A stretch of DNA of 64,000 nucleotides, from positions 1 through 64,000 of the forward strand of contig CABIZF010000003.1 in the NCBI GenBank assembly GCA_902363135.1, given 5' to 3'. The notes below the pieces were generated by a model. That model had not been told where the DNA came from. It did no database searches and worked only from the letters and a program-made list of their open reading frames with translations. Source of the DNA: Lachnospiraceae bacterium. Its GTDB lineage: Bacteria; Bacillota; Clostridia; Lachnospirales; Lachnospiraceae. The translations under genes and the position numbers were made by a program. Below are positions 35,552 to 62,822 of this stretch, piece by piece (position 1 is the stretch's first letter; each line of letters opens with the position of its first letter).

Positions 35552-35583
35552 TCAATATCCTTTCTCCCTGCCTGGGTAGTCAG

Positions 35584-35720: not shown

Positions 35721-35869
35721 CTGCCTTTGCGCCCTACCGGGGGCTTTTCCGTCCTACGGACGGGGCGGCTGTTCCCGCCGCTTTACTTCCGCCGCCATAG
35801 CTTTTCGGATAGCCGAAAGTACATTTTCTATCGTATATTCGTCCCATCCGGCAAGCCATATCAGGTCCG

Positions 35870-36101: not shown

Positions 36102-37082
36102 TTATTCCGGCTTGATTTTATCCAGTTCCCAATACCACGAATTGTTTATCCGCTTTGCTCTGATACTCAATTCCTTTTTCGCATTTTCAAGCGTCCGTCT
36201 GGATATACCCTGTTCCTCTGCAAGATTGAAAATCTCATTGCTCTGCATGGCATTGTTTGTTTCTGCCACTTCCCGGAGCAGACGCTTCGCCTGTTCCAGC
36301 TTATTCGCTTTCGGAGCGATACCGCCCAACACTTCATCGGCGGTAATCTCATAATCTCCGAGCCAGTGAAAACCGTCCTCCGACAACTCAAAGGCCTTCG
36401 GGTGCCCAAACGCCGCCAGATTGTTTTTTATCTGGACTACCGCCCTTATATTCGCTTCGCCCTCCACTCTGCCGACCAGCAGGACGCTCCTTGCCACCGC
36501 AAAGAAATCAATGGAACCCATGCCCCGATATGCTGCCTTATTTCCAGCCGCTTTGTTCATGTGCCCTACAAGTACAATGGCACATTGATATTTCTCCGCC
36601 AGAGTCGCCAGCTTCTTTGTCATATCCCTTGCTTCATTTGCCCGGTTCATATCCATACCGCCGCCGAGATACGCCTGTATCGGGTCTAAAATCAGTAGCT
36701 TCGCCTTTGTCCTTATGACTGCTTCTTCCAGACGTTCATCTATCATGGAAAGTGATTTTATGCTTTCGTCAATGACGGAAATATTTTCACAATTTGCTCC
36801 TGCCGCTTCCAAACGGGGCTTAACCGTATCTGCAAGCCCGTCCTCCGCACTCTGGTAAATCACATTCAGCGGCTCCGTCAGTTTCATTTTGCTGTCCAGA
36901 CCCTCGCCTTTTGACAGCTTCGCCGCTATGTTCAGCACAAGCGTTGTCTTACCGTCCCCCGGATCGCCTTGTACAATCGTCAGCTTTCCATAAGGGATAA
37001 ACGGAAACCACAGCCACGCCACCTCCTGCGACTGTATCTCCGACATTTTAATCATCTGTAATTCTGTTCTCGTTCCTGCCAT
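36102..37082 (-). CDS. RepA-like AAA ATPase (element C)
   Basis: 326 aa from the ATG at 37082 (GGAGG five bases upstream). Walker A GDPGDGKTT near residue 40, Walker B-like LLILDPIQAYLG, sensor region LVGHMNKAAGNKAAYRGMGS, and a C-terminal winged-helix-like segment. Belongs to the RepA/DnaB-like hexameric helicase group of RSF1010-type replicons; a role in element replication or transfer is likely. Its relative in element B is interrupted by a stop. Confidence 0.85.
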   Translation of the reverse strand: MAGTRTELQMIKMSEIQSQEVAWLWFPFIPYGKLTIVQGDPGDGKTTLVLNIAAKLSKGEGLDSKMKLTEPLNVIYQSAEDGLADTVKPRLEAAGANCENISVIDESIKSLSMIDERLEEAVIRTKAKLLILDPIQAYLGGGMDMNRANEARDMTKKLATLAEKYQCAIVLVGHMNKAAGNKAAYRGMGSIDFFAVARSVLLVGRVEGEANIRAVVQIKNNLAAFGHPKAFELSEDGFHWLGDYEITADEVLGGIAPKANKLEQAKRLLREVAETNNAMQSNEIFNLAEEQGISRRTLENAKKELSIRAKRINNSWYWELDKIKPE

Positions 37083-37122
37083 AATGTCCTCCGTTTTTGA
37101 AAAATTCGTTGTCACCGGAAGA

Positions 37123-37206
37123 AACCTCTGCTATACTTGAATTGTGATTGTTGATAACAGAGGTTTTCCAGTTATCACAGCCCTAACAGTTGCCGCTGTC
37201 AGGGCT
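37123..37206 (-). other. Two hairpins between MobC-like and ATPase genes (element C)
   Basis: AACCTCTG (37123-37130) pairs with CAGAGGTT (37158-37165) across a 27-base loop; AGCCCTAACAG (37179-37189) pairs with CTGTCAGGGCT (37196-37206), overlapping the end of the MobC-like gene. Same plan as 29055-29139 with different bases. Confidence 0.5.
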
Positions 37207-37560
37207 TTTTTCTTCGCCTTGCCACAGATACCTTGCACCGTCCAACATCCAAAGAATTGCTTTCAGCATATCTTCATAGGCTTCCCGCAAATCTCTGATT
37301 TCTTTGGAAGTAATCCCCGGATTTTTGCCATCAATTTGCTCCGCCAGTTCCACCAGCCGATTCTCCATTTCCTGCAACCGTTCCACAATCTGATAAACTG
37401 TTTCTTTCTTGCCTACCACGCACACCCGGTTATAAATGCAGGAACGGACAAAATAATCTTTTTTCTTCATGCCGCTTGTGAAAATCTTTGCTTCGATTTC
37501 TTCCCTCTCTCTGGGAGAGATACGGAAACTGATTGTCGGATATTTGTGTGTGCCGCTCAT
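37183..37560 (-). CDS. MobC-like relaxosome protein (element C)
   Basis: 125 aa; ISFRISPREREEIEAKIFTS then GMKKKDYFVRSCIYN is the same RHH-type N-terminus as at 29142. Overlaps the integrase gene by 4 bases (ATGA). Confidence 0.72.
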   Translation of the reverse strand: MSGTHKYPTISFRISPREREEIEAKIFTSGMKKKDYFVRSCIYNRVCVVGKKETVYQIVERLQEMENRLVELAEQIDGKNPGITSKEIRDLREAYEDMLKAILWMLDGARYLWQGEEKSPDSGNC

Positions 37561-38642
37561 TCCTCTGCGCCCTCCTTAAATTCTTCATTCAGCAATTTTG
37601 CCATTTGTGTCTGTTCCGTCGGGAACATATGAGCATAGCGATAAGTAATATCCACGCTTTCATGCCCCACCCTGTTTCCGATTGATACCGCCGAAAATCC
37701 CATGCTGATAAGCAGTGATACATGAGAATGTCGCAAATCGTGGATTCTAATGCGTTTCACTCCCGCTTTTTCCGCCCCTCTTGTCATTTCATGGTGCAGA
37801 AAGCTTTTTGTCAGATGAAAGATACGGTCAGTGGGAAGAATCCCGTATAATCTGCCGATATAATCTTTCAGTTCTTCACATAAGAAATCCGGCATACTTA
37901 CATTTCGTTTGCTTTTCGGAGTTTTCGGGTCTGTAATTACATCTTTACCCTCCAATCGCTGATAAGATTTTGTTATCCGAATGACTTTGTTATCAAAATC
38001 AATATCCTGCGACGTGAGAGCTAACAGTTCGCCCACTCGTAAACCGCACCAGTACAATATCTGAAACGCATGATAGGAATATGGTTTGTCCTTTACCGCT
38101 TCAATGAATTTCAGATATTCCTCTTTTGTCCAGAACAACATTTCCTCCGCTTTTCCCTTTCCCAACGGCCCCGCCTTTACAACAGGATTGCTTTTCAGTT
38201 CATAGAACCGTACCGCATGATTAAACAGTACACTCAATTCTGATTGCAGAGTTTTCAAATAAGTCGGAGCATAGGGCTTTCCTTTTTCATCACGATAGGA
38301 AATCTGTTCATTCTGCCACTGGATAATATCTTTCGGACGAATATCACGCATTTTCTTATCCTTGAAATAGGGCAGTAGCTTTGTCCTCAAGATATGCTCT
38401 TTCGTCAGCCAGGTATTGTGTTTCAGTTTCGGCTTCATATCTCTTGTGTATGCCTGAACAAATTCCTCAAAAGTCATATCCAAGTCAGCCGCTTCTTTCA
38501 TACGGAAATGCCGTTCCCACTCTGTTGCTTCTCGTTTGGTCTTAAATCCCCTCTTAACTTTCCGGCAATTCTTACCAGTCCAGTCATAATAGTGAAAGGA
38601 CACATACCATGTTCCCCGCTGTTCGTCTTTGTACGCCACCAT
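37557..38642 (-). CDS. int: Tyrosine integrase (element C)
   Basis: 361 aa. KNCRKVKRGFKTKREATEWE arm-binding region, catalytic WCGLRVGELLAL, IHDLRHSHVSLLISMG, NRVGHESVDITYRYAHMFP. Similar throughout to the element B integrase. AAAGGAGTG precedes the ATG. It lies in the middle of the element rather than at an end. Confidence 0.92.
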   Translation of the reverse strand: MVAYKDEQRGTWYVSFHYYDWTGKNCRKVKRGFKTKREATEWERHFRMKEAADLDMTFEEFVQAYTRDMKPKLKHNTWLTKEHILRTKLLPYFKDKKMRDIRPKDIIQWQNEQISYRDEKGKPYAPTYLKTLQSELSVLFNHAVRFYELKSNPVVKAGPLGKGKAEEMLFWTKEEYLKFIEAVKDKPYSYHAFQILYWCGLRVGELLALTSQDIDFDNKVIRITKSYQRLEGKDVITDPKTPKSKRNVSMPDFLCEELKDYIGRLYGILPTDRIFHLTKSFLHHEMTRGAEKAGVKRIRIHDLRHSHVSLLISMGFSAVSIGNRVGHESVDITYRYAHMFPTEQTQMAKLLNEEFKEGAEE

Positions 38643-38657
38643 AATCTCACTCCTTTC

Positions 38658-38852
38658 CTAATTCGCCTGTGCCATGCCATAAAATTTTTCTTCATAGTAT
38701 TTTCTGCTCACTCGTCCGGCGATTGTGATAAAACCTTTTGCATCCAGTTCTTCGTTCATCTGCCGCACCAGCTTATAAGCAAATGGTTTGGAAATGCCTA
38801 AGTCCTGCGCCACTTCTCCGGCTGTTACAAATAAATCATTTTTCAAATACAC
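38658..38852 (-). CDS. Excisionase-like HTH protein (element C)
   Basis: 64 aa winged HTH (TAGEVAQDLGISKPFAYKLV, then YYEEKFYGM). Counterpart of 30583 and 24469. Lies 15 bases upstream of the integrase. Confidence 0.78.
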   Translation of the reverse strand: MYLKNDLFVTAGEVAQDLGISKPFAYKLVRQMNEELDAKGFITIAGRVSRKYYEEKFYGMAQAN

Positions 38853-42951: not shown

Positions 42952-43878
42952 ATGTCAGAACTTTTAAAGAAACAGAACTACGGTGTTGAGGTTGAATTTA
43001 CAGGTATTTCAAGAAAAATGGCTGCGGATGCAGTTGCAGAAATTATCGGAACTGCAGCTTCCAGACCAGATCGCACTTGCTACCAGACAAGAACCATTCA
43101 GGATTCACAGGGAAGAAAATGGAAGGTAATGCGAGACAGCTCAATTCATCCAATTCGTAAAGTTGGAACCGAGAACATGGACGAATACAGAGTTGAATTC
43201 GTAACACCGGTTCTTAAATACGAAGATCTTGATACACTGCAGGCAATCATCCGTAAATTCAGAGAAATCGGTGGAGTTCCTCACAGTTCATGCGGAATCC
43301 ATATTCATGTAGACGGAGCGAACCATACCGCAACTTCTCTTCGCCGTCTGGTAAATTTCATGTATAGCAGACAGGAAATCATTTACGATGCGCTTGCAGT
43401 AGGTGACAGAAAATATCGTTGGTGTCAGCCAGTTTGCAAGAATTTACTTGATACCATGAAAAAAGACAAAAACATCACAACCGATTCCGTTGAGAAAATT
43501 TGGTACAGCCCAGCAAACGATGGCTACTGTGGTGGAATCGATCATCAGCATTATAACTCTACAAGATACCACGCATTGAATCTTCATAGCTTCTTCCAGA
43601 AAGGAACTGTCGAATTCAGACTTTTTAACAGCACTCTTCATGCAGGAAAGATCAAAGCATATGTACAGTTTTGTTTAGCACTCTCTGCATGGTCCATAGA
43701 ATCTGATGATAAAGTCGTATTCAGAACCATGAACGGATACACAGCAAAGAAAAAAGTCACTTTAATGTATAATATCCTCACAAACAGACTTGGACTTTAT
43801 GGTGATGAGTTCAAAACATGCAGACTTCACATGATGAAACAGCTTCGTGAGAATGCAAATGCAGAACATGTAGCTTAA
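42952..43878 (+). CDS. Amidoligase family protein (Amidoligase_2)
   Basis: 308 aa, AGGAGG upstream. Glutamine-synthetase-like COOH-NH2 ligase fold: NYGVEVEFTGISR at the start (acidic ligand residues), DEYRVEFVTPVLKYED, CGIHIHVDGANHTATSLRRL, HALNLHSFFQKGTVEFRLFN. These enzymes form amide or isopeptide bonds using ATP. The neighbour is a gamma-glutamylcyclotransferase, the partner that cleaves gamma-glutamyl amides; the pairing is known from comparative studies of amidoligases. Role here unknown: peptide or cell wall modification, or phage-related. Confidence 0.85.
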   Translation: MSELLKKQNYGVEVEFTGISRKMAADAVAEIIGTAASRPDRTCYQTRTIQDSQGRKWKVMRDSSIHPIRKVGTENMDEYRVEFVTPVLKYEDLDTLQAIIRKFREIGGVPHSSCGIHIHVDGANHTATSLRRLVNFMYSRQEIIYDALAVGDRKYRWCQPVCKNLLDTMKKDKNITTDSVEKIWYSPANDGYCGGIDHQHYNSTRYHALNLHSFFQKGTVEFRLFNSTLHAGKIKAYVQFCLALSAWSIESDDKVVFRTMNGYTAKKKVTLMYNILTNRLGLYGDEFKTCRLHMMKQLRENANAEHVA

Positions 43879-43925
43879 TCACAAATCGGCTGACCTAACG
43901 GCTTTACGGGGAGAAAGGAAATACC

Positions 43926-44369
43926 ATGAGTTTATATGTAGCATACGGAAGTAATCTTAACGTACAGCAAATGTCATACCGTTGTCCTGGAGCGACAGTC
44001 GCATTTACCGGATATCTGATAAATTGGAAATTGCTTTACAGAGGAAGCCACACAGGATCTTATGCAACCGTCAAAAGGCAAAAAGGAAGTAGGGTTCCTG
44101 TTGCTGTTTGGAATATCGATAGCAAAAATGAGAAGGCTCTTGATCTGTACGAGGGATATCCGAGATTTTATAAAAAAAGAAATGTATTTGTACAATTAAA
44201 AAACGGCACTAGGAAAAAGGCTATGATATATCTCCTGCCTGACTCAGCCACTGTGGGAAGGCCATCTAGCCGTTATGTTAAAACTGTATTGCAAGGTTAC
44301 AAAGATATGGGATTTGATACAGATTATTTGTACGATTCATTGGATTATAATTTAAAAGAAGTGAAATAA
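43926..44369 (+). CDS. Gamma-glutamylcyclotransferase (AIG2-like)
   Basis: 147 aa. YVAYGSNLNVQQM opening (substrate-binding YGSN), VAVWNIDSKNEKALDLYEGYP with the catalytic Glu, and YLLPDSA. It releases 5-oxoproline from gamma-glutamyl groups. Follows the amidoligase by 47 bases and is probably in the same transcript. Confidence 0.87.
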   Translation: MSLYVAYGSNLNVQQMSYRCPGATVAFTGYLINWKLLYRGSHTGSYATVKRQKGSRVPVAVWNIDSKNEKALDLYEGYPRFYKKRNVFVQLKNGTRKKAMIYLLPDSATVGRPSSRYVKTVLQGYKDMGFDTDYLYDSLDYNLKEVK

Positions 44370-47401: not shown

Positions 47402-47827
47402 TTACCTCCACTTGTATCTTGGTTTTTCTTCACCAAATATCCAATACCTCAGATGATCATCCAATACAATAGCTAATAGAGATAGGATATACCATGCCAC
47501 AGTAAAAGGAAGACATATCTGTCCAATTATATTAAAAGGCATATTGCTGTAATCCCATATTCCAAGCCCCAATACAATATTCAAAATGTATCCGGAAAGG
47601 AACTCAATTGCAGTTATCCCGACAGCACAGATAAACATCTGTTTCCATATGAGCATATCCCATCTCAGAAATTCATTTATCGAACCGCAAAACAAGAAGC
47701 AAAGTCCGCCAACCAGTACCATAGGCAGTGAGCTGTACCCTCGCCATATCAGTTCGATCATGTAGTAAATCGTACCTCCTATAGCGAAAAGCACAGCGTT
47801 TCTGCCTATGGTCTTCAGAGTATTCAT
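47402..47827 (-). CDS. Putative ABC-transporter type IV (CmpB-like) membrane protein
   Basis: 141 aa, four hydrophobic segments (about residues 10-28, 33-50, 62-85, 100-125), GYILNIVLGLGIWDYSNMPF and GQICLPFTVAWYIL as in PF06541 proteins. Such genes occur in phage lysis regions. It overlaps the upstream gene by 4 bases. Confidence 0.7.
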   Translation of the reverse strand: MNTLKTIGRNAVLFAIGGTIYYMIELIWRGYSSLPMVLVGGLCFLFCGSINEFLRWDMLIWKQMFICAVGITAIEFLSGYILNIVLGLGIWDYSNMPFNIIGQICLPFTVAWYILSLLAIVLDDHLRYWIFGEEKPRYKWR

Positions 47828-48513
47828 TTAACCTCCTTGTCGGCTGCCATTTCGGCCAGATAGTCCTTTAAAACTTCGGACTGATATTCTTCCGGGATCG
47901 GTGCTCCGTATTCAATCTTGGCGATTTCCGAAGCTTTGGAGCAGCCTTTGATCCACATGTTCAGTGAATTCGCATAGGTTGTGTGATAGCTTTTGAATTC
48001 CATTGCACCATTAATAATCTTCTGCATATCCTCAGCAGAATAATACCGGCACGGATTGCCGTCTTCATGGTATTCCAGTTTTTTGATGCCAGCGGTCAGC
48101 TGAGCCTGTTTTCCAAAGAGATTTAGCTGATCTTCATCTTTAAGGCTAAAGTGTTCCTTTCCAGACGAAATATCAATGTCCGTTCCTGCAAAAACTGTGC
48201 TCTGGCAGATCTGAGAAATCTCCTTTTTCTTTTCTGCTCGGTATGTTTCAACAGAAAGATAATCAGCATTGCAGCCTTCTTCTTTGTCTTTCAACTGATC
48301 GAACCAAAAATCAAGATCTGCAACTATCTCTTCCTTAGGAACGACACCTGCAGATACTTTAAAATAGATTTCATCAGCTTCCATACCCTGTGGTCCTTCA
48401 TCTTTTTCCGGAAGCTGGACTTCGTTCTTACGAATCCATACATCAGCGGAACCATCTGGAAGAACAGCATATGTAATGTTTCCTTGTGATTCCGGGCTAT
48501 TCGTTTTATGCAT
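47824..48513 (-). CDS. Phage tail protein with DUF4376-like domain
   Basis: 229 aa. C-terminal part (KKEISQICQSTVFAGTDIDI, then GKEHFSLKDEDQLNLFGKQ) resembles DUF4376, found in tail-fibre-associated proteins. N-terminal 80 residues are acidic. It starts 8 bases inside the RT gene end, so it is expressed with the DGR genes. Confidence 0.65.
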   Translation of the reverse strand: MHKTNSPESQGNITYAVLPDGSADVWIRKNEVQLPEKDEGPQGMEADEIYFKVSAGVVPKEEIVADLDFWFDQLKDKEEGCNADYLSVETYRAEKKKEISQICQSTVFAGTDIDISSGKEHFSLKDEDQLNLFGKQAQLTAGIKKLEYHEDGNPCRYYSAEDMQKIINGAMEFKSYHTTYANSLNMWIKGCSKASEIAKIEYGAPIPEEYQSEVLKDYLAEMAADKEVK

Positions 48514-49861
48514 AATTCAATTTCCTCCACTTCTTATAATATTTTTCCATAGCATAGCTTTTCTGTTTCGCATAACGGCTGATTATATTTTTAGCCATCG
48601 AAATAAGTTGATCCCAACATTCTGCAACCCTCACAAGAAAGGAGTCTGTTGTTACAAACCAACCGTTATATGCTATGGTACTCATGGCGAATTTACTACC
48701 TATAATCTTTTTGTTCTTTATTTTTTTCGCAAATCTATGAATTTTCCTGCGAGCCTTTAGGAATATTGATGCTCTTATTCTTGTTGACACATTCCGTATT
48801 GTCACTGTTTTTCCGGAATAACATCTTTTGATTAAATTCTGTCCATGGAACACAAGCCCCATATAGTCTAAATCCCTTCCTTTTTGTTTTCCGTTTCTGT
48901 CAACATAACCTGTACGAAATAACGACCAGGAATCTTTGATCTTTAGACAGAGTGTAGATTTTACGAATTCAATAACAAGCAGCATTGCCTTATGAAGATC
49001 TTTCTTATTAGAGCCAAAAAGAATGATATCATCCATCTGAATCATGATATGATAAATCAATCTTTTTCTTGTTGTCTTCCCTCGTCTGGTCTTCATTTCA
49101 TAAAGTTCATTTGTGCAATAATGGTACAAATAAGATAGATAATAATTGCACAGATCTTTCGACACCGGAGAGCCTATAAAAATCCCATGTTTGCAATCTT
49201 TCTCTTTGTTCTGCACCTTTGCTTCAGAATACAATCCAATCAAAGTCTCAAACAAGTACAACAACATATCTGACTTTCCTAAATCTCTTCGAAGAAATTC
49301 TAATATTTTATCATGTGACATAGAAGGATAGCATTTTTTAATGTCTGACTGAACGCAATATTTAGTTCCTTCCGGATCACGCGACATCCATCGTTCGATG
49401 TATTTTTTACCGTAAGCTTGTCCTCTTCCAGGTATTGATGCAACTTGAAAAAGTCCGACTTTTGCCGTCCACAACTCATCTGCCGCTTCCTTGGCCAACA
49501 CCTCATATAGCTGCATGATCATCTTTTCAAGTCCTAGCGTTCTAATTTTTCCGCTCATTCCATCTACTATATCAACATTTTTCACAAGTTTCTCTTCCGG
49601 AACTACCATATAGATATGTTCCCTTACAGTTCTGGTCTTCAAATGCCACGACATTTCATATGCAATCTGATCGATCACAGATGCTACAAATTCCGGTGAA
49701 TTCTCCAACCGCCTTCTAGCCTCATTTTTACTTATGCTTCCATAGTAAGCAAAAATACTCGGCATATTACCATTTTCTAGCTTGTCATATATAAATGCAG
49801 TTATGTATTTCCTGATGAAATTTTCGTCAGAAATATCCATTCTTCGGCAATATGTCTTCAT
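48506..49861 (-). CDS. DGR reverse transcriptase
   Basis: 451 aa. It should copy the template-repeat RNA into mutagenized cDNA with errors at adenines. RT landmarks: VQSDIKKCYPSMSHDKI (motif with first catalytic Asp, residue 173), IGSPVSKDLCNYYLSYL (residues 229-245), MIQMDDIILFGS (catalytic DD, residues 277-278) and YMGLVFHGQN. The box is QMDD rather than the usual YxDD, and IGSPVSK replaces the usual IGxxxSQ. No maturase X or endonuclease domain is seen, so it is not a group II intron RT. The gene lies between the template repeat and the DUF4376 gene. Confidence 0.88.
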   Translation of the reverse strand: MKTYCRRMDISDENFIRKYITAFIYDKLENGNMPSIFAYYGSISKNEARRRLENSPEFVASVIDQIAYEMSWHLKTRTVREHIYMVVPEEKLVKNVDIVDGMSGKIRTLGLEKMIMQLYEVLAKEAADELWTAKVGLFQVASIPGRGQAYGKKYIERWMSRDPEGTKYCVQSDIKKCYPSMSHDKILEFLRRDLGKSDMLLYLFETLIGLYSEAKVQNKEKDCKHGIFIGSPVSKDLCNYYLSYLYHYCTNELYEMKTRRGKTTRKRLIYHIMIQMDDIILFGSNKKDLHKAMLLVIEFVKSTLCLKIKDSWSLFRTGYVDRNGKQKGRDLDYMGLVFHGQNLIKRCYSGKTVTIRNVSTRIRASIFLKARRKIHRFAKKIKNKKIIGSKFAMSTIAYNGWFVTTDSFLVRVAECWDQLISMAKNIISRYAKQKSYAMEKYYKKWRKLNYA

Positions 49862-50056
49862 TACCAGTCCTCTTTCTTTCTGTGTTCAAGAGCTTTCGGT
49901 TTTACTACTAACCCCCACCTGTGTCCACTTCCGCCACAGGGTCAGCAGTCAGTTTCCTGACCGCCGATGCTGGTGCTTGAATTTCGGGCATTCCGCCCCC
50001 GCCATTTTAGGGCCGTCTCAAAGGACAGCGAAACACGCTACACATCAAAATTCTCA

Positions 50057-50167
50057 CAGAAATTCGCGCGGCATAGTTCCACCAGCTGTTACCGAGCCCG
50101 TTGTTCAGGTTCGCATACCACCGGCCCGCGTTAGACCAGTTGTTCAGGTTGCCGCCGGAAAGCCACT
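50057..50167 (-). repeat. TR: DGR template repeat (TR)
   Basis: 111 bp, matching the variable repeat with an exact offset of 239 bases and no gaps. It differs at 20 positions, and all 20 are T on the plus strand (A in the sense orientation). Read in the VR frame it encodes nine AAC and two TAT codons at the changed sites (WLSGGNLNNWSNAGRWYANL, then NNGLGNSWWNYAARIS). It lies in the non-coding region between target gene and RT. 20 of the 24 template adenines have been changed. Confidence 0.95.
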
Positions 50168-50204
50168 GCCAAACGTAGCGTGAGTCCGTATGATTTTAAA
50201 ACGC

Positions 50205-50255
50205 CCCGGCTACGCCGGGAAATAAAAGGGGAGTTCCCCTCTTGCCATTCGGCAA
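50205..50255. repeat. Three tandem hairpins between VR gene and TR
   Basis: CCCGGC-TAC-GCCGGG (50205-50219), AGGGGA-GT-TCCCCT (50227-50240) and TTGCC-ATTC-GGCAA (50242-50255). Hairpins downstream of the VR help retrohoming in other DGRs (BPP-1); these sit just after the target stop codon. Confidence 0.75.
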
Positions 50256-50263
50256 TTCACCCC

Positions 50264-51940
50264 CTACGCTGCTGCTTTCGCACAGCGTCCAGAAGCAGAA
50301 AGACGCGCGGCAAAGCGCCACCAGCTGAGACCGAGCCCGAAGCCCAGGACCGCAAACCACCGGCCCGCGCCAGACCAGTCGGCCAGGGTGCCGCCGGAAA
50401 GCCACTCTCTTAACCCGTCAGAAGTCTGATCAAGCTTATTTGTATACTGTCCATCTGCATACCCTGTGCTGGAGGAAGCTGCTACTTTCGTTCCATGTCT
50501 TACAGAAGGATTTTCCGGATCATATCCAAGTTCACTGATATATTTCCAACTGTCCTGTGTATCTGCAATACTATATCCACACTCAACATAATCCGATGTC
50601 ACACTTGTTGCTAACTTTGTGCAGTCATAACAAATGCAAGCCGTCATTACATGATTAGATATCTTAAGAATTACATTGCTGATAACTTCGTAAAATCCCA
50701 GGAACATTTCTACACCGAACAGAATGTATGGGTCTTTTCCAGATGTATTACTGTTCGGAGAACCGCAAGAACCAAGGACATTATCGCATGCACCTGTGTG
50801 CCATGGCATTGTAACGATAGTGGTCTTTACTTCTGTAGAGCCTACCATTGTAGAACCGGTAGAAAATTTAGTTCCTCCATTATCTACATAAACTGCCGAA
50901 TTATTGCTGTCATAATCTTCAATTTTTGTAATGATGACACGATTTGCTTTTGCATGAAGTCCTGCATTTCCTCTATCATCCGTCGGATTGCTACCACTTA
51001 AAGCTGTGGCATTTCCAATGGATACCGTGCTTCCGACCACCAAATTGTTTGCATCACTTTTGCTGATAATGATACGTTCCACATTATTTTCAACAACAGT
51101 CGCATAGAACCTGTTGTAATATCCTGTGCAACCAGACATGATTGACTGTGAATCCCGTGTTGCGAAAGCGACCTCAAACAGGTTGTCCATATGGTTTTTA
51201 TCCTGTGCAGTTGTTCCACAATACTGTGTTCCTTTGGCTTTGAATCGTGTAATCATTCCATTGTGAGACTGATCATGCGCAGCGTTTACTCCGCTAATAG
51301 ATGCAGCCTTTCCATCAGAACCATTTCCAGCCATATATTTAGCCTGTGCAACGAACGGTCTGACAGTCTGATCTGTACGGATTGCTGCTCCTTCCGGAAA
51401 GAAGCCTGCGTGATGTTCATCTGAGATAACAAGGCTTTCTCCATTTGCATCAATGGTTATGTTAATCCACTGAGTCAGATACAACATCCATGTATCTCTT
51501 TCTGTCCTGGAGAACTCATTGTCGATTCCCTTAATATATTCCACAATGAATTCTCCGGCATCATCTACATGACCATTAACTTCCAATCCATAAAAAACAG
51601 ATTCGCCTTCAAAATCATTTCTTCCTCTTACTGTGTTCGTAGAAGGCTGTGCTACCATGCCTACAGCATCGAGAGTACGTGTGCCCGCCGACAATGGCGA
51701 TACATCAAATGCACTATGATGAACCCCATATTTTTTCCCAGTTCTCTTGAGATTAAGAATGAATTCAGCCTGTTTATTTTTTTCTCCCGCAAACATACTG
51801 GCGGCTTCCATAAGTGCCACGTCATTATTTATCAACTGTCGAAAGACAGCGTTAAACACATCTGCATGAGCAGGATCAGAAGTTTCTAATTCGCGGAGCT
51901 GATTGTTGAAAACAGCTCCAGAAATATCGAAATACGACAT
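50264..51940 (-). CDS. DGR-diversified phage tail-associated protein
   Basis: 558 aa; AAGGAGG precedes the ATG. Residues 1-150 start MSYFDISGAVFNNQLRELET and look like a phage structural/tail protein; the centre is beta-rich with many Ser/Thr/Asn. The C-terminus (SGLREWLSGG-type, WSGAGRW, SWWRFAARL) is a C-type-lectin-like VR domain with Trp/Gly scaffold and variable surface residues. Predicted receptor-binding tip whose specificity the DGR alters. The last 10 residues (SASGRCAKAA) lie beyond the repeat. Confidence 0.85.
   Translation of the reverse strand: MSYFDISGAVFNNQLRELETSDPAHADVFNAVFRQLINNDVALMEAASMFAGEKNKQAEFILNLKRTGKKYGVHHSAFDVSPLSAGTRTLDAVGMVAQPSTNTVRGRNDFEGESVFYGLEVNGHVDDAGEFIVEYIKGIDNEFSRTERDTWMLYLTQWINITIDANGESLVISDEHHAGFFPEGAAIRTDQTVRPFVAQAKYMAGNGSDGKAASISGVNAAHDQSHNGMITRFKAKGTQYCGTTAQDKNHMDNLFEVAFATRDSQSIMSGCTGYYNRFYATVVENNVERIIISKSDANNLVVGSTVSIGNATALSGSNPTDDRGNAGLHAKANRVIITKIEDYDSNNSAVYVDNGGTKFSTGSTMVGSTEVKTTIVTMPWHTGACDNVLGSCGSPNSNTSGKDPYILFGVEMFLGFYEVISNVILKISNHVMTACICYDCTKLATSVTSDYVECGYSIADTQDSWKYISELGYDPENPSVRHGTKVAASSSTGYADGQYTNKLDQTSDGLREWLSGGTLADWSGAGRWFAVLGFGLGLSWWRFAARLSASGRCAKAAA
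50296..50406 (-). repeat. VR: DGR variable repeat (VR)
   Basis: 3' end of the target gene, encoding residues 512-549. Thirteen codons differ from the TR: residues 518, 520, 521, 524, 529, 531, 533, 534, 538, 542, 543, 546 (silent) and 547. Identity resumes exactly elsewhere and ends abruptly after GAGTGG upstream and CTGCTT downstream. Confidence 0.95.
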
Positions 51941-52008
51941 TTTCTACCTCCTTATGATAACATTTATCTATCATTATCCGATTACTTGTTACAAAATATC
52001 GAAATACG

Positions 52009-52389
52009 TTAGAATGTATCATCGCACTCGAACACGCATTCCATGTCTGCATCTTTTCCTTTCTTCAGAAACGCTTTCATGGCCACCATATCCCCATCTG
52101 CATCATATAACCCAACTTCAGAAATATAAGTGTTTGCCAGCTCATTTTCTGCCAGTGTGCAGCGATATCTGATTTTTGTATCAGAAAGAACCTCATAACC
52201 ATCAACGTTCTTGCGAAGCAATTCATGATGTAAGGTGTTCTGATCGGCACTGTGTGGTTTTACTGTTCCGCCCGAATCTACACCTCCATCACCAAAAGCC
52301 ATGCCTACAATCTTTGGGAGCGATGAAATCCCCGCTCTTGCTTTTACCATTTTTTTCTTAGCCAGTGTTGTAACTGTAGTCCCTGCCAT
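52009..52389 (-). CDS. Phage tail-fibre/collar N-terminal protein
   Basis: 126 aa: ITLAKKKMVKARAG-like start (TTVTTLAKKKMVKARAGISS), KIVGMAFGDGGVD, ENELANTYISEVGLYDADGD. Pattern of phage tail-collar fibre proteins. It connects the baseplate to fibre proteins; next to the DGR target. Confidence 0.72.
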   Translation of the reverse strand: MAGTTVTTLAKKKMVKARAGISSLPKIVGMAFGDGGVDSGGTVKPHSADQNTLHHELLRKNVDGYEVLSDTKIRYRCTLAENELANTYISEVGLYDADGDMVAMKAFLKKGKDADMECVFECDDTF

Positions 52390-53598
52390 TTAAAGGACCT
52401 CCCTTCCTGAATTTAGTTTTACACTTCCATCTAGCCTACACGTTCCATCCAGTCTTGCGGCCCGTGAAGGAATAACCATTGTGACCTCTACTTCTTCTTC
52501 GTGTTTAACAGGCGCACGAATCCGAACTGTCTGCAGATATGGCGGCTCTCCTGCATCAAGCAATAAAGTCCCGTCTAGCAAACAGTTGCCGTCCAGGATC
52601 TTATTACCATCACGCCAGCCCATAATTACCCTCTGTGTGCCTCTAAAATCAGCTTTCTCAGCATTAATCATATCAGGCAATGAAATACACTGTTTCGTTT
52701 CAAAAGCCTCCTGATTGCCGATAAACAGTCTATGCCCGATAAAAGTTTCCATCGGATACCAAGAATTAAGCTTTCTCGTTCCGTCCAGTGAAAAGTTTCC
52801 ATCAAGAAAACCTTCCCACCATACAAAATCACTTCGTACGAAAAAGGAAGGCTTAAATATATTTTCATGATATACATCTGGAATCCGGTGAAAAATTCGA
52901 TCTGCTATAAAATTCTCAGTTAAGACTGTATCGAATGGATAGACTGGGCGAAATTCTGTCGGATACCAATGATTCAGATTGATACTGCCGTCAAGAGCGA
53001 AGGAACCATCAAGAGAATACTTCCACCATGAAAAATCTGAATGATACGTCACTCTCTGTTCAAAGCTCTCTGTGCATTCAATAAGCATGAGGATAACAGA
53101 AAGAAGATATACTGTGTGTGATTGCTTCAGCTTATCGACTTTACTCTTAACTTCTCCTAGTTCTACCTCTGTTTCACCTTCCAATTGAACGCTGAATATG
53201 TTAGGGTGAGAAAAATAATGTCCCGGCTCATTACAATCATGAACCTGGACATCATAATCCGTCACGCCTTTTAAAATCTGTTCCATTCGCCATGGGGTCA
53301 TTGGTGCTTTTGTGTTTTTCTTTTCACGGAGCAACCGTCGTCTTTCTTCATATGACAGGTCTTCTCTTACGGGCAGTCCATACTTGATCTCATGATATTT
53401 AAGTCCCCATGTAGCTGTATCGATAAACATCTGGTATGGAAGTTCTTCAATATGCACAGTGGCCAGATCAAGCTCTCTGCCCATAACTTCGTATATCCAT
53501 TTTCCGACATAGGATTTATCATACCAGCCTTTAGTTACATATGTCAGCATTCTGTTGGCCGAATCGCTCCACGGGAATCTTTCCAGATCTATACTCAT
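52390..53598 (-). CDS. YmfQ-like tail protein with LDG repeats
   Basis: 402 aa. The N-terminal 190 residues match YmfQ/DUF2313-type baseplate proteins (FPWSDSANRMLTYVTKGWYD, YEERRRLLREKK). The rest holds four units with the motif LDGxxxLDGxxxLN starting near residues 195, 264, 334 and 382, separated by Trp/Tyr/Phe-rich segments. This extension is not part of the usual family and may be a fibre-like or adhesive region. Confidence 0.72.
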   Translation of the reverse strand: MSIDLERFPWSDSANRMLTYVTKGWYDKSYVGKWIYEVMGRELDLATVHIEELPYQMFIDTATWGLKYHEIKYGLPVREDLSYEERRRLLREKKNTKAPMTPWRMEQILKGVTDYDVQVHDCNEPGHYFSHPNIFSVQLEGETEVELGEVKSKVDKLKQSHTVYLLSVILMLIECTESFEQRVTYHSDFSWWKYSLDGSFALDGSINLNHWYPTEFRPVYPFDTVLTENFIADRIFHRIPDVYHENIFKPSFFVRSDFVWWEGFLDGNFSLDGTRKLNSWYPMETFIGHRLFIGNQEAFETKQCISLPDMINAEKADFRGTQRVIMGWRDGNKILDGNCLLDGTLLLDAGEPPYLQTVRIRAPVKHEEEVEVTMVIPSRAARLDGTCRLDGSVKLNSGREVL

Positions 53599-54734
53599 GT
53601 CTCAGCCCCCTCTAATGTAAATGTCACATTACCGGTATCTGCATACTCGCTTGATGAAAGGTGAATGTTTTCTCTCTTTCCATCCATCGTAAAATCTATG
53701 AAATCGCTTACTCCGGTTATGGTTGACAGTACTGTTCGAGCCGAATTGTACCGGAGGATATTTGTTTCTTTCGCCGCGGAATAGACTGCCATCATTTCAG
53801 TTTTGAATGTCGAGATTACATCATCCAATCCAACGCCATCCAGAACAAGTCCTGTACAGGCAAAATCTACAGTTTTTACTGTAGCTGACTTGACGATCAG
53901 CTTAGACGATCCAGTAGGCAACAGTCTTTTGCTCCTGTCGTCCGGAGAAACGATATGGTTGTAAACTGCTGTGACCAGTGTACTTGATGCGGGCTGTCCG
54001 TTGCTATCAACTAAGATCAATCCCACTGTTCCTGGTCCTTCAACAGCTGGTTCTACAATACAATCTCCAATCCCGGGGACTTCTTTGGCCCACTTAATAT
54101 AGTCAGCATCATTCGCTACATAGAACTGCGAATCTTGGAATTCTGCATGGATTCGTTCATAATAATCTTCATCATTTTCTTCTTCAGCACCACCCGATGT
54201 TTTCTCGCTGTTGGTAATTGCTGTAACGCCATTGATCGGTGATGCCATAATTGTAATCGTATTTGCCGGAACATTCCCGGATACCCCCGGAGTGACCGCT
54301 TCAACCGCAAGGTCCATGGTTTCATTCTCTGTGAACGTAACAGTTCGTAAAGTCTGGAACTCAACAGCTTCCATCTGATCTGTTGCAGGAACTGCAAAGA
54401 CTGTGCCTGCTGCCAATACTGTGCCATAAGCCGCCGTAACAGACACTGTTCCAGTTGCTGCTACAGCTTCTTTCCTTGTCACTCCTGCTTCTGCGCCATG
54501 CAGATCCATCCAATCGCCCCAGGAATATTCCGGAAACGCAACCATCAGGCAGCGAACAAGATTGAACTGTACAAGCTGAGATATCTCGATGGCCGTAGGC
54601 ATGGTAAAATCATATGGGAAATCACCTTCCATATCCGATATATCCGCCGGAAGGTTTCCCATCATCCTCTCCTGTATCTGGTCAGAATCACTTTCTGACA
54701 CAAATTCCGGAACTTCAAATTCTGGTCTAGCCAT
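53595..54734 (-). CDS. Baseplate J-like protein
   Basis: 379 aa from the ATG at 54734 (AGGAGGTGG upstream). Baseplate_J pattern: YSWGDWMDLHGAEAGVTRKE, AVTPGVSGNVPANTITI, GGAEEENDEDYYERI. It forms the wedge of a contractile-tail baseplate. Overlaps the YmfQ gene by 4 bases. Confidence 0.85.
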   Translation of the reverse strand: MARPEFEVPEFVSESDSDQIQERMMGNLPADISDMEGDFPYDFTMPTAIEISQLVQFNLVRCLMVAFPEYSWGDWMDLHGAEAGVTRKEAVAATGTVSVTAAYGTVLAAGTVFAVPATDQMEAVEFQTLRTVTFTENETMDLAVEAVTPGVSGNVPANTITIMASPINGVTAITNSEKTSGGAEEENDEDYYERIHAEFQDSQFYVANDADYIKWAKEVPGIGDCIVEPAVEGPGTVGLILVDSNGQPASSTLVTAVYNHIVSPDDRSKRLLPTGSSKLIVKSATVKTVDFACTGLVLDGVGLDDVISTFKTEMMAVYSAAKETNILRYNSARTVLSTITGVSDFIDFTMDGKRENIHLSSSEYADTGNVTFTLEGAET

Positions 54735-54748
54735 ATTAACCACCTCCT

Positions 54749-55210
54749 CTAAACTTCTATGATTGAATCAACGGTAAAGGGTTCTCCATCAACCGAATAA
54801 ACTATGAATGATACTTTTACCCTCCCAGTACCCCATTCAAAAGAAAACTCTTCTACCGATGATGTCCGCGGATTGACCATCAGAGCTTCCTGGATTGTCC
54901 TTTCTAGAGAAAGTTCTACAGTGCTTTGGTCAGATTCTCTTGTTATATCTTCCGTTTCAGTTCCATGATCATCCGAATATCCCAGACAAGAATATCTTTC
55001 TGTAGATACCGTTTTTACACACCATATTTTATATGCTTCATATCCATCGTTCATTGGCACATTATTTGCGGCGGTGCGAACGAAATCTCCTTTTTCAAGA
55101 TCCCACATTGGCGATGGCTTATAGTCAACGTCATATTCTTCATCTTCCTCTTCATCCACAAAATCTGGAACATCTACAGTCGGCAGTAAATTTTTTGATT
55201 CTTCTTCCAT
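54749..55210 (-). CDS. xkdS: DUF2634 baseplate protein (XkdS-like)
   Basis: 153 aa; acidic N-terminus (DEEEDEEYDVDY), DLEKGDFVRT, then TIQEALMVNPRTSSVEEFSF. Matches DUF2634/gp25-like baseplate wedge proteins in PBSX-type phages. Confidence 0.75.
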   Translation of the reverse strand: MEEESKNLLPTVDVPDFVDEEEDEEYDVDYKPSPMWDLEKGDFVRTAANNVPMNDGYEAYKIWCVKTVSTERYSCLGYSDDHGTETEDITRESDQSTVELSLERTIQEALMVNPRTSSVEEFSFEWGTGRVKVSFIVYSVDGEPFTVDSIIEV

Positions 55211-57569: not shown

Positions 57570-60500
57570 TTATGTTGTAACAGGCGTATTCTCATAAGCT
57601 TCGCTGAGCATTGTTGCAATTTCGCTTCCAAGATCGTCAGCCAGCTCCTTGATATGCGCTTTGATGAGCCGAATAACATCACTGTCATTTGTATCTGATA
57701 TATTGAACTGCGGGGAGAGGTTAACCTGTACCACAACGCCAGATTTGTCTGACACTACATTCGTTGGCACAGTTTCTTTCTCTGTTTTTTCAGAATCTTG
57801 TGAACTGGAATCTGTGTCGAAATAAGGTGTCGTGTTTGATACTTCTTTGCCAACGATTCCTCCGCTCGCATGTGCTGATATCTCATCATCAGGACCAAGA
57901 ACTCCCAGTGTCCGTCCTGCGGATTTCCACAATTCAATACCTCTCTGTCGTCTGGCCGGTACCGTAGGAATGATATACTCCAACCCTTCCTCACCTACCC
58001 ACGACAGCTCAGCTCCATTCAGTCCGACTTCGCCTCCATTTGCATTACCTGCAATAGTAGCTGATACAGATGATCCGCTACTTGAGGTGGAAATACTAGC
58101 TGATGGATTCGTGATATGCCAGATCAGCGTAACTGCAACATTTGCAGAGGCTGTGAAGCCCTGTGCGAATGTGCTTTGTACCTGTCCGGCACATTCCGAA
58201 TAAATCGCTGCTGCATTGTTGGTCTGGTCGAGTGTGACATCAACATGTCCGTCTGCTGGAATTGTCTCCGAGAAAGCAGATACTACATCAGCTGTTGCGA
58301 GAGAATAAATCTCAGCCGCATTATTGGACTGATCCAACGTGATGCTCGCATGACCATTGGCCGGAACATCACTTACTGCGCTCTCAATATCTGCTGTTAC
58401 CTGCTCCACAACGCCAGAAGTGTCTGTTGTCGTGCCTGAGAAGGTAACATTTGCACTGCCTTCAACTGGTACATCTCCTACAGCACCTTTTGCGTCTTCT
58501 TCCGCCTGTGCCTGCATTCCGGAGGTATCGGTCGTTGTATTTGTGACATTTACATTTGCAGATGCTTCCTGCTCAATAGGCTCTGTTTCCGTTTCATCTG
58601 CTGCCTGTTCGGTTGCAGACTGCATGCCAGATGTATCCACCGTTACCAGTTCTGATGGGATAGTAACAGATGCACCTGCCTGCACTTCAATTCCATTTGC
58701 CGCAAGTGTCCCGGATTCCATGCCGAGAGCTGCCTCAATCTGAGCCGCCGCTGTATCGGAATCCACTTCTACATCTGCCAGATCAACTTTGACTCCTTCT
58801 GCTGTCACAGACATTTCTGCTCCTTCTGCATCCAGAGCCGACATAGCCTGCTCGATAGCAGCCTGAGCCTTGTCTCCGTCAACTTCTGCAGTCAACGTAT
58901 CCATGGAAATAGTCAGTTCCTGGTCTGGGTGAATAATATACGGGCTTTCGATACCGTTCTGTTCTGCAATGGTCTGCCAGTCAATTCCAAGAGCGTTGCC
59001 AATTTCCCACAGGCAATCGCCTTGATCAACCTTAATCTTTACATGATCAGCAGTAACCTCCTGTGTTTCACCCAAGTCACCAAGAGCCTCATTCAGCTTT
59101 GAAGTCCATGCATCTTTGTCAATATCAACGTCTCCATCAACAGAAGCTTTCAGTCCTTCAAGTGTCACATCATCAGTTGTAGTCTCTGCCGCCGCCCTGT
59201 CAATCGCTTCTGCAAGTTCAGGAGGCAACTGACTGCGGACCGTTTCATACATTGGATTGCTCGGATCCGTAAGTGATGCTTTTAATTCATCACTTCCATT
59301 CTTCCAGATCTGATTAGCATAGTTCTGCCATGTTGCAGACGTATCGCCAGCAGCTGCTCCAACCTCAATAGCATCATTAAATGAATCCATAAGGCTTTGT
59401 GGAACTGCTTTCCCCGCTTCCCGGTAATCGTCAATTAGGCCCTGCATCTGTGTTACATCAGGTTTCATGCTCTCATACATGGTACTCAAGGCATTCTGTG
59501 TAGCGTCAGTTGTAACTCCTAATGTTTTTCCATTACCAAGTTCGTTGAAACCATACATCAATGCGCTGGTCATAGCAGATGTGTCTCCGCTCTCTAATTG
59601 TTTCTGTGCTGAATCAATAGAAAACTGCGTATTTTCCGCAAGGCTCTGCCTGTTGCTCTGAATTTTCTCTGCATATGCAGAATTCAAAGTGTTTGAGCCA
59701 AGCTGCAAGCTCTTAGACAGTTCGTTTCCTTCCTGTCCTTTTACATACCAACCAGTCATTTCGTGATACTGCTTATTCTGAGCAGTTGTGATTCTTCCGG
59801 CTGATTCCATCGAATTAAGCTCTGAATACCACTGCTCAACATCTGCCTGTACGCTTTCCTTTGCCGATTGCCTCTGATCTCTCATTGCTCCCAGTAAGTC
59901 AGTGAATGAGCCACTTTCCAGATCAGCTGCATTCAAGCTCCCGTATTCTTGATTTATCCAGTCCCATTTTGCCTGTGCTTCCGATTCCTTCCACCGGGCA
60001 GTTATGCTGTTCATTTTTTCCTGCAAAGCACTGATGGCACCTTCTTCATCTGCATCTATGATTCCATCTTTCAGTGCCTCAGAGACCTTTTGTGATAACT
60101 GGCTAGATAATCCATCCAATTCAACATAATCCGCTGTAGCCCATTTCTCGATGTTCTGGGCTAATGTCTGTCCCTCTTCCGTGCCTCCGAGATACGTCTG
60201 AACGTGGATATGCGCTGCAAACGTCCGGCTTTCCAGTTCTTCAATCTTGCTCTTAACAAAAGTTTCGATATTACTTGTGTAATCTTCCTGTTCTTCTGTC
60301 GTAAGTTTAATACCAACTCTGCTCTTAAACTCCAGAACGTCATTGGATTCCAGTGCCTTCTGAGCATCTTCTCGAAGCTTATCAGCGTTCTTTACCTCAT
60401 TTAAGGCAACTTCCACATTGGCCAGGTACTTCTGATCAAGAATTCCAGAAGCAATGTCCTGCACTTCCTGAGCTGATAGTTTGATGTTTCCAAAATGTTC

Positions 60501-62822
60501 TTCCAGATTACTGCTCAAAGCTTTCTGGTTATAGTTGTCTACTGCAACACCAATTCCAACCACTGCCGCTGTTACTGCCGCTGCCGCAAGTCCGAATTTC
60601 GCCGCTGTCGGAACCATTGCTCCCAGATCACTTATGAACGCTCCAACACTTGGTGCTGTCTGTGCTGCAAGTCCAATGCTTTTAATAGCATTTCCGATAG
60701 GCTGTAAGGTGGTCGCGATATTCTTTGCATTTCCAAGAAGCCCAGTTGCTCCTTTAGCGATCAGCATAGAGCTGAGCACAGAAGAAAGGCCTGCTTTCTT
60801 TCCTCCCGGAAGGATAGCAGACGCACTGGAGAATAATGTTCCGAGTCCGGAAGAAATCAGATGTTTCCCATCTCCGCCAATCCAGTCGGCAAAAGGCTGA
60901 CCGATAAGAGTATCCCATGCAATATCCATCTTTCCGAACATATCCGCATTCTGCCACTCATCAGATGCCGTCATGGTCCCGATAACTGTCTTCATGTGTG
61001 CTGCTTTTTTGTCCACAGTGTCCATAAAATCATTCAGAGCAACCGTCACAGCCGGCATTGCATCTGTAATGGAATCAACGAATCCTCTGACATAGGGAGT
61101 AAGTCTCTGTCCAAAACTGTTCTGAACGCCCTCTACAGCCGACTGCATAAGAGTCATGGAGCCTGCCAGGTTGTCCAACATGGTGTCAGCCATATCCTGT
61201 GCTGCATCTTTTGAATTTCCGATTGCATTGGAAAGATCGTTATAATCCTGTTCTGAAGCATTGATGATAGCAAGCATACCGCTCATAGCTTCTTTTCCGA
61301 AAATGGTGGACGCCGCCGCTGTCTGTTCAGTTTCAGAAAGACCTCCTAAACTGCTTCGCAAATTATCCATGACACCTTTCAGTGTTTTCATGTTTCCCGA
61401 GCCGTCGGTCAGGCTAATACCATATTTGTCCATAGCCTCTGCCATGCTGTTAGTTGGTGCTGCCATGTTAGCCAGGGACGTCTTTAAAGCTGTACCGGCC
61501 ATGCTTCCTTTAATTGAACTATTAGCCATAAGCCCTAATGCCAAAGAAGTATCTTCGACGCTATATTTCATGGCTCCTGCTACCGGCGCAACATATTTGA
61601 ATGATTCACCTAGCATGCCTACGTTTGTATTCGAACTAGCAGACGCCTTTGCAAGGACATCCGAGAAATGTCCGGCATCTTTTGCTTTCAGTCCAAAAGC
61701 TGTCAAAGCATCTGTAACAATATCCGAGGTGCTTGCCAGATCTTCGCCGGAAGCTGCTGCCAGACTCATAATACCGGATATACCAGCAGTCATTTGCTCT
61801 GGTTTCCAGCCTGCCATAGCCATGTAATTAAATGCCTGAGCTGCTTCAGTAGCGGTAAACTTCGTAGTTGCACCCATTTCCTGTGCTTTTGCGGTCAGAT
61901 CATCAAATTCTTTTCCTGTAGCACCAGATATAGCCTGAACCTGTGACATCATACTCTCAAACCCTTTGTATGTATTCACAGTATCAGCCAGTCCTGCGCT
62001 CACTCCAAGGAATGTTGCGCCCTGTGCTATTGGATTCTTTGCAGCATTTAAAACCGCTCCCATTGGGGCAGTAGCGGCATCTACTATACTCATAGTTGCC
62101 GTAAATACGCTTCCGTCCCAGGCTGATGCTTTATCCATCACATCATCGATGATCGGACTTGCATTATCATCTGCCCCCAGTTCCGCTGTCCCGGAAGTTC
62201 CATCGAATGTGGCCACTGCATCTTCAGCGCTTCGGATTATCTGCGTGGCTGTATCGTCAGCTTCCACTGAGGCCACAGCCACTTCACCATTCAAGGCGGC
62301 TAAAGCATCCTCCACATCCATAATCTGCATCGTAGCATTATCGTCCGCAGTAAGCTCTACTACCGCTTCATTTCCGTTTAGAACAGACAGTGAATCTCCA
62401 ACACTATTTACCACCCCGGTGGCATTATCATCTGCCCCCAGTTCTACGTCAGCACTTGCTCCGTCAAGGGTTGCTGCTGCATCCTCGACACCAGATATTT
62501 CAGCGGTAGCATTGTCGTTTGCACCTATCTCAATATCTGCAGATATTCCTCCTACTCTTTCAGCCGCATCTTCGACTCTTGAAAGAACCGGAGTGGCATT
62601 GTCATCTGCTGAAACTTCAATAGAATGCTCACGTCCAAGCGTTCGATCTACTCGCTCTGCTGTTTGTTCAATCCCTCTGGTTTTGAATCCAGATGACAGG
62701 ATCCGATTTACCTTCTGGGCGGCAGTGGCTAGGGTGTTCATCTTATTCGTAATATTTGATAGGCCAGGGTCTGTATTATCATTCACAGATACAGGAATCT
62801 CAATTCTAATTGTTTCTCCCAT
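57570..62822 (-). CDS. Tail tape measure protein with DDNAT repeats and internal LysM
   Basis: 1750 aa. Residues 10-255 contain seven or eight degenerate units of about 32 aa around ADDNAT (ANDNATAEISGVEDAAATLD, GADDNATGVVNSVGD). A TP901-type tape-measure domain follows (residues 290-620, including AKAQEMGATTKFTATEAAQA). Hydrophobic stretch near residue 745-760. A LysM-like segment sits near residues 1262-1304 (GDCLWEIGNALGIDWQTIAE). C-terminal repeats of DTSG and NNAAEIYS units. Length sets the tail length. Confidence 0.88.
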   Translation of the reverse strand: MGETIRIEIPVSVNDNTDPGLSNITNKMNTLATAAQKVNRILSSGFKTRGIEQTAERVDRTLGREHSIEVSADDNATPVLSRVEDAAERVGGISADIEIGANDNATAEISGVEDAAATLDGASADVELGADDNATGVVNSVGDSLSVLNGNEAVVELTADDNATMQIMDVEDALAALNGEVAVASVEADDTATQIIRSAEDAVATFDGTSGTAELGADDNASPIIDDVMDKASAWDGSVFTATMSIVDAATAPMGAVLNAAKNPIAQGATFLGVSAGLADTVNTYKGFESMMSQVQAISGATGKEFDDLTAKAQEMGATTKFTATEAAQAFNYMAMAGWKPEQMTAGISGIMSLAAASGEDLASTSDIVTDALTAFGLKAKDAGHFSDVLAKASASSNTNVGMLGESFKYVAPVAGAMKYSVEDTSLALGLMANSSIKGSMAGTALKTSLANMAAPTNSMAEAMDKYGISLTDGSGNMKTLKGVMDNLRSSLGGLSETEQTAAASTIFGKEAMSGMLAIINASEQDYNDLSNAIGNSKDAAQDMADTMLDNLAGSMTLMQSAVEGVQNSFGQRLTPYVRGFVDSITDAMPAVTVALNDFMDTVDKKAAHMKTVIGTMTASDEWQNADMFGKMDIAWDTLIGQPFADWIGGDGKHLISSGLGTLFSSASAILPGGKKAGLSSVLSSMLIAKGATGLLGNAKNIATTLQPIGNAIKSIGLAAQTAPSVGAFISDLGAMVPTAAKFGLAAAAVTAAVVGIGVAVDNYNQKALSSNLEEHFGNIKLSAQEVQDIASGILDQKYLANVEVALNEVKNADKLREDAQKALESNDVLEFKSRVGIKLTTEEQEDYTSNIETFVKSKIEELESRTFAAHIHVQTYLGGTEEGQTLAQNIEKWATADYVELDGLSSQLSQKVSEALKDGIIDADEEGAISALQEKMNSITARWKESEAQAKWDWINQEYGSLNAADLESGSFTDLLGAMRDQRQSAKESVQADVEQWYSELNSMESAGRITTAQNKQYHEMTGWYVKGQEGNELSKSLQLGSNTLNSAYAEKIQSNRQSLAENTQFSIDSAQKQLESGDTSAMTSALMYGFNELGNGKTLGVTTDATQNALSTMYESMKPDVTQMQGLIDDYREAGKAVPQSLMDSFNDAIEVGAAAGDTSATWQNYANQIWKNGSDELKASLTDPSNPMYETVRSQLPPELAEAIDRAAAETTTDDVTLEGLKASVDGDVDIDKDAWTSKLNEALGDLGETQEVTADHVKIKVDQGDCLWEIGNALGIDWQTIAEQNGIESPYIIHPDQELTISMDTLTAEVDGDKAQAAIEQAMSALDAEGAEMSVTAEGVKVDLADVEVDSDTAAAQIEAALGMESGTLAANGIEVQAGASVTIPSELVTVDTSGMQSATEQAADETETEPIEQEASANVNVTNTTTDTSGMQAQAEEDAKGAVGDVPVEGSANVTFSGTTTDTSGVVEQVTADIESAVSDVPANGHASITLDQSNNAAEIYSLATADVVSAFSETIPADGHVDVTLDQTNNAAAIYSECAGQVQSTFAQGFTASANVAVTLIWHITNPSASISTSSSGSSVSATIAGNANGGEVGLNGAELSWVGEEGLEYIIPTVPARRQRGIELWKSAGRTLGVLGPDDEISAHASGGIVGKEVSNTTPYFDTDSSSQDSEKTEKETVPTNVVSDKSGVVVQVNLSPQFNISDTNDSDVIRLIKAHIKELADDLGSEIATMLSEAYENTPVTT

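Follow-up and report, generated by a model that had tools for sequence, protein, structure and literature searches.

The window analysed here is a 64,000-nucleotide stretch of a Lachnospiraceae contig (CABIZF010000003.1, positions 1 to 64,000). It contains a locus that we take, with high confidence, to be a prophage-borne diversity-generating retroelement (DGR) that has been active since the window and its close relative, locus L096, split. Sequence comparison shows that this locus combines a template repeat/variable repeat signature, transfer from the template to the variable repeat between relatives, a DGR-type reverse transcriptase, a spacer RNA with covariation, a potential hairpin at the target site and a target with the predicted fold of a DGR variable protein. 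The parts are as follows:

50264..51940, minus strand: target gene, encoding a 558-aa DGR variable protein within the tail module (in phrog_17147, a PHROG without assigned function; no Pfam family)
50296..50406, minus strand: variable repeat (VR), 111 bp, at the 3' end of the target gene
50057..50167, minus strand: template repeat (TR), 111 bp, 24 adenines
49865..50049, minus strand: structured RNA in the spacer 3' of TR, scoring 188.7 bits with covariance model R1 (built from rows that include the window)
48506..49861, minus strand: DGR reverse transcriptase (RT), 451 aa, motif 4 GIFIGSPVSK (SK at residues 234-235), QMDD at residues 275-278

Alignment on the minus strand reproduced the repeat pair that a sequence-only reading of this DNA had proposed, with the same coordinates and length: TR and VR align without gaps over exactly 111 bases at an offset of 239, and the homology breaks off sharply at either end. 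The repeats differ at 20 positions, every one of them an adenine in TR, and 20 of the 24 template adenines are altered (8 A>G, 7 A>T and 5 A>C). Thirteen VR codons are affected (nine AAC, two TAT, CGA and ATT), giving 12 amino-acid substitutions; these counts, too, came out as that reading had given them. If 20 mismatches fell at random, the chance that all would land on the 24 adenines is 2e-18 (hypergeometric), and chance is therefore excluded as the source of the pattern. The sequence-only reading had further stated that an RT gene adjoins TR; the gene is there, outside the span covered by that reading (49862..51940), with a spacer of 195 bases between it and TR. A search of the 64 kb window gave no second VR, the next best candidate reaching 40/87 non-A template positions. 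The homology ends on its 3' side with GCCGCGCG-AA-TTTCTG, in which both adenines are changed.

L096, from a record titled Eubacterium sp. UBA3279, carries the same DGR, with 98% identity across 4.4 kb; phage records gave no DNA match to 48000-52400. The DGR region is likewise present at 98% in the genome that came nearest to the window (29% of the window's sampled words), and a host of Clostridia type is therefore probable. There are 74 differences between the window and L096 over 6.7 kb, 13 of them in VR. It had been predicted that VR would vary at TR-adenine positions between relatives, and 12 of these 13 sites are indeed template adenines. The 13th is the only site at which the two TRs differ (50138), and there VR has the base of its own strain's template, so that template information is found in VR in nature. 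Sixteen further pairs of near relatives showed 153 VR differences (not independent events, as pairs share members), 151 of which conform: 139 are at shared template adenines and 12 follow a TR difference, while the other two are at an adenine present in one TR only. In three of the 16 pairs the VRs were identical.

The RT reading frame is intact, and the closest structure, both by profile and by Z score, is the BPP-1 DGR RT. Its motif 4 is GxxxSK and not the DGR hallmark (I/V/L)GxxxSQ. SQ is diagnostic rather than defining: it is reported in 90% of 155 DGRs, and the exceptions are counted as DGRs as well (PMC3521204), so membership of the class stands. Among the 120 listed of 133 RT relatives, motif 4 was SK in 78, AK in 2, SQ in 30, AQ in 1 and a gap or other letters in 9. 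In a tree of 121 rows (made by a quick method, rooted at the midpoint and with several long branches flagged), the 28 rows with lysine form one side of a single branch with SH-aLRT support of 100, and this K clade sits among SQ-type RTs of DGR loci.

With lysine in motif 4, specificity for adenines is not diminished. Of the 15 K loci, 14 have a TR/VR pair, the exception being L017, whose contig starts near the RT, and in these pairs 220 of 354 template adenines were changed, with 4 mismatches at 1193 other sites. The 91 loci with glutamine gave 73 distinct pairs and 3 duplicates, 15 being without a pair; here 1117 of 1773 template adenines were changed, with 41 mismatches at 6036 other sites. 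The two groups are alike in both rates (p 0.76 for adenines, 0.23 for other sites), where the pair finder favours adenine mismatches equally in K and Q and the non-A rates are lower bounds. The motif counts exclude L010 (motif not recognised) and keep L015 apart from both groups, and the locus scan excludes L001 and L002 (same DNA as L096). A difference between K and Q in the spectrum of A>N changes (chi-square p 0.015) is confounded by selection and shared ancestry and was not used.

The catalytic box is also deviant. QMDD occurs in the window RT and its near-copies, 11 among the 120 listed relatives; at the first position of the box, Y or F stands in all 100 other listed relatives that possess an xDD box. 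According to the DiGReF survey this residue of YxDD is Y, with F in 14% (PMC3521204). The distant relative L015 has SP in motif 4 and an NMDD box, yet also a TR/VR pair in which adenines account for 18 of the 20 mismatches; the first position of the box is thus not wholly fixed. No published DGR RT with SK or QMDD was noticed in the literature searched, only partly by queries for these letters.

The spacer between TR and RT is a structured, covarying RNA. In an alignment of 13 K-clade spacers (A2, which excludes L017, with no TR found, and the near-copies L020 and L099), we found seven helices with 36 pairs, 20 of which have changes on both sides, and 94.4% of cells were paired. Double-change cells numbered 69, as against 20.5 after shuffling (0/500 as high) and 7-17 when the alignment was slid. 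The slid controls lean toward the structure, which was derived from the same alignment, so that matches of R1 outside its training set serve as the independent check. R1 was run over 56 sources (the window, 14 K loci, the first 8 kb of BPP-1 and 40 other loci) and matched the window, all 14 K loci, two of them not in the training set, and 16 of the 40 other loci at E < 0.001. Scores in these 16 ranged from 86 bits (L043) down to 20.8 (L073); in 15 the match lies between TR and RT, and in L029, where no TR was found, just before the RT. Matches in L004 and L005 were weak (E 0.035 and 0.064), and R1 found nothing in BPP-1 (bases 1-8000), L042, L054, L065, L068, L081 or L092.

Taken alone, the window spacer has an unremarkable single-strand fold (z -1.15, 25/200 shuffles as good), and the case for the RNA therefore rests on covariation. 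An Rfam scan of 44-56 kb gave nothing at the spacer and one chance-level match elsewhere. An RNA-first search of 397 genomes of the family under strict filters recovered only an already known relative; in viral contigs the window-specific spacer pattern had no match, and the K-clade pattern found only contigs already among the relatives. By analogy with BPP-1, the spacer RNA is presumably that portion of the template RNA which recruits the RT.

For the target, the C-type lectin fold that had been proposed for its variable end is borne out by prediction. The best structural match of the model is the Thermus aquaticus variable protein TaqVP (5vf4; Foldseek E 3.5e-5, 14% identity), which is a DGR variable protein with a C-type lectin fold (PMC6328139). 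The resemblance covers residues 111-550, leaving the N-terminal ~110 residues unmatched, and residues 1-49 are poorly predicted. VR lies at the 3' end of a gene whose predicted product has a C-type-lectin-like scaffold. Eight database relatives of the target (P0123, P0126, P0128, P0127 and P0129-P0132) have, by eye, odd ends: three run into the TR flank and five look frameshifted inside VR. These may reflect recombination between VR and TR with slippage, or repeats that collapsed in assembly.

The surroundings are those of a contractile-tail module, as the sequence-only reading had held, and the target gene comes after contractile-tail genes on the same strand. Gene position and fold together suggest that the target is probably the receptor-binding protein. 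These neighbours, and the noncoding elements around the repeats, are:

57570..62822, minus strand: tape measure protein, 1750 aa, with LysM
52009..55210, minus strand: tail module beside the target, comprising a tail-collar fibre N-terminal protein, a Gp48-like protein, Baseplate_J and a sheath initiator
50266..50288, minus strand: GC-rich hairpin 7 bases downstream of VR, with a GAAA loop on a stem of 9 pairs and a single bulge, running from the last codons into the stop codon
50227..50263, minus strand: conserved block after the stop codon, GGGGTGAAT followed by two small hairpins
50205..50219, minus strand: GC-rich stem-loop in the target-TR interval, terminator-like by eye, unflagged by a terminator scan
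50180..50187, minus strand: conserved GGACTCAC just 5' of TR
47824..48513, minus strand: gene, 229 aa, overlapping the RT stop by 8 bases; residues 89-212 match phage tail-fibre family phrog_1348, E 1.9e-7

Hairpins described for DGR targets have GC-rich stems of 7-10 bp and a GRNA loop and lie 4-34 bp from VR (PMC3240598); the post-VR hairpin falls within this pattern save for its one bulge, and the DNA fold of 50200-50296 has a z of -3.8. The GGGGTGAAT block is kept in 17 of 18 aligned K and near-SQ loci (not L101), and GGACT or GGATT stands at the GGACTCAC site in 18/18 rows. A long-range GGGU/ACUC pairing across the VR-TR region was considered and set aside, since it hardly varies and proves nothing. 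Genes for a holin-like protein and an amidase lie beyond the 47824-48513 gene, and beside this lysis end of the prophage an amidoligase gene is followed by a gamma-glutamyl cyclotransferase gene (42952-44369).

The interpretation that we favour is an active DGR. RNA of TR, together with the structured 3' spacer, would be copied by the adjacent RT, which would misincorporate at template adenines, and the cDNA would replace VR at the 3' end of the tail protein gene; residues on the predicted C-type-lectin face would change while the scaffold stays. The spacer RNA would recruit the RT, priming of the cDNA and homing would proceed as in BPP-1, and the target would bind a host receptor.

The strongest rival, which we nevertheless reject as very unlikely, is a fossil: TR and VR would record past mutagenic homing, and the RT, with SK and QMDD, would now be dead. 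The RT has indeed lost both the SQ glutamine and the YxDD tyrosine, and SQ variants have been read as probable inactivations or sequencing errors (PMC4244168). However, the reading frame is intact, the K form is kept across the whole clade of 28 rows, and QMDD recurs among the listed relatives. L096 and the window also have QMDD in common, although 12 template adenines separate their VRs, so diversification most simply continued after QMDD arose. The K clade fits neither of the literature readings of SQ variants, error or inactivation. A very recent loss of function in the window's own lineage may have taken place.

Still less probable is that the strain differences in VR arose by ordinary phage recombination rather than mutagenic homing. 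The ~160 bp just upstream of VR (50438-50597) hold 21 differences between the window and L096, a density well beyond that seen elsewhere in the region and without origin in the template, and this may be a recombinant or fast-evolving tract beside the diversified end. Recombination there nevertheless leaves unexplained both the confinement of VR differences to template adenines and the matching change in TR and VR, and two pairs from the window's K clade with identical TRs behave likewise, all VR differences being at template adenines (12/12 for L023/L099, 14/14 for L019/L020). That the RT is a group II intron or other enzyme beside a repeat derived by chance or conversion is very improbable indeed, for although TIGR04416 is its best NCBIfam match, the score of 48.7 bits is far under the cut-off of 300, the closest structure is a DGR RT, no group II intron was matched by Rfam over 44-56 kb, and the TR/VR mismatches are at adenines only, here and beside related RTs.

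Several observations nonetheless count against an active DGR. Motif 4 and the catalytic box of the RT deviate from the DGR consensus. Recombination may have touched 50438-50597 and, in doing so, brought in some of the differences in VR. The evidence is standing variation only, with no homing event observed. A sequence search gave no solved relative of the target. Three of six normally ending near relatives of the target (P0122, P0125 and P0135) have one VR change each outside the template-A codons and the TR-variable codon, as judged by eye and without their own TRs. Finally, the initiation of mutagenic homing (IMH) site of BPP-1 has an A-free run of 14 bp of GC at its 3' end; the TR/VR homology of the window ends without such a run, its last two variable adenines lying at a distance of 7 and 8 bases from where it stops.

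No accessory variability determinant (Avd) was found either. The Avd family phrog_3206 (number from PMC11318856) gave no match in 14 of 15 K-clade records, some of them short fragments, including the whole 2.9 Mb assembly with L096; the record of L024 has a single 14.3-bit match inside a 1393-aa frame, which is probably due to chance. The same search finds BPP-1 avd and Avd-like frames in three other genomes. When 20 proteins of the window, most of them near the DGR, were compared with all PHROGs, phrog_3206 was unmatched. A PF05635 search matched nothing anywhere, controls included, and is uninformative on Avd, and a one-sequence phmmer search with BPP-1 Avd matched only itself. In 12 K loci (L018 and L022 not being included) VR and TR are 117-179 bases apart and the TR-RT spacer is 170-207 bases, so that besides TR there is no room for an Avd-sized gene between VR and RT.

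An accessory gene is usual but not universal, being reported in the majority of known systems (PMC10053308), and in reconstituted BPP-1 inactivation of Avd is reported to leave activity as low as in an RT mutant. The K clade may use a strongly diverged or trans-acting helper protein. A homologue of the 47824-48513 gene stands directly after the RT in 28/28 K and near-SQ loci compared (single-linkage clustering), in P0108 (487 aa) a similar sequence continues after the RT in the same frame, and a protein like its product is in only 1 of 50,697 phage records. From these comparisons, the product may be a tail-type protein or a DGR accessory factor.

The K form and the missing Avd may matter for mechanism. 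We propose tentatively, and at chances a little below even, that DGRs of the SK clade work without Avd, RT and structured spacer RNA sufficing for mutagenic homing, and that adenine-selective infidelity there does without the SQ glutamine (or, in the window's lineage, the YxDD tyrosine). One published idea is that the SQ motif underlies the way a DGR RT errs at adenines yet stays faithful elsewhere (PMC3521204). A clade with lysine in place of that glutamine and the same adenine-only pattern is a natural test, and speaks against a need for the glutamine. Should Avd truly be lacking, a simpler two-part model of mutagenic homing, RT and RNA, would follow, with an RNA structure supported by covariation. 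For these phages, the variable residues of the tail protein are marked.

Elsewhere in the window, 26058-30771 and 34181-38852 are integrative elements that resemble and neighbour each other; both encode a Mob_Pre relaxase and a tyrosine integrase, and both have, as judged by eye, a small excisionase-like open reading frame. A MobA/MobL relaxase is at 834-2588, and a TIR protein with a strong Thoeris ThsB match (PADLOC 352.7 bits) at 33034-33723.

Set beside known systems, the DGR of the window is ordinary in action and unusual in build (SK, QMDD, no Avd found, covarying RNA). In BPP-1 (mtd-avd-TR-brt; NC_005357 bases 1-8000) avd lies between target and TR, the RT has 328 aa with GSLTSQ and YMDD, against 451 aa with GxxxSK and QMDD here, and R1 has no match. 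GxxxSQ relatives of the window's RT (L026, L028, L031, L032, L037 and L101) share with the window the R1 matches, the GGGGTGAAT block (not L101), GGACTT before TR and the post-RT gene; they differ in having SQ, and their targets are more distant (36% identity for L101, 34% for L032). The human-faecal phage record MT836575 (unannotated) has a relative of the target (42.7%) and one of the RT (30.0%) close together, and is likewise distant, while TaqVP is like the target in predicted fold. The SQ exceptions in DiGReF (SP, SH, NQ, PA, AQ and VQ; 15/155) still show adenine exchanges, and SK is absent from the list given there; those exceptions were put down to perhaps faulty sequencing or recent inactivation (PMC3521204), whereas the SK of the window belongs to a conserved clade.
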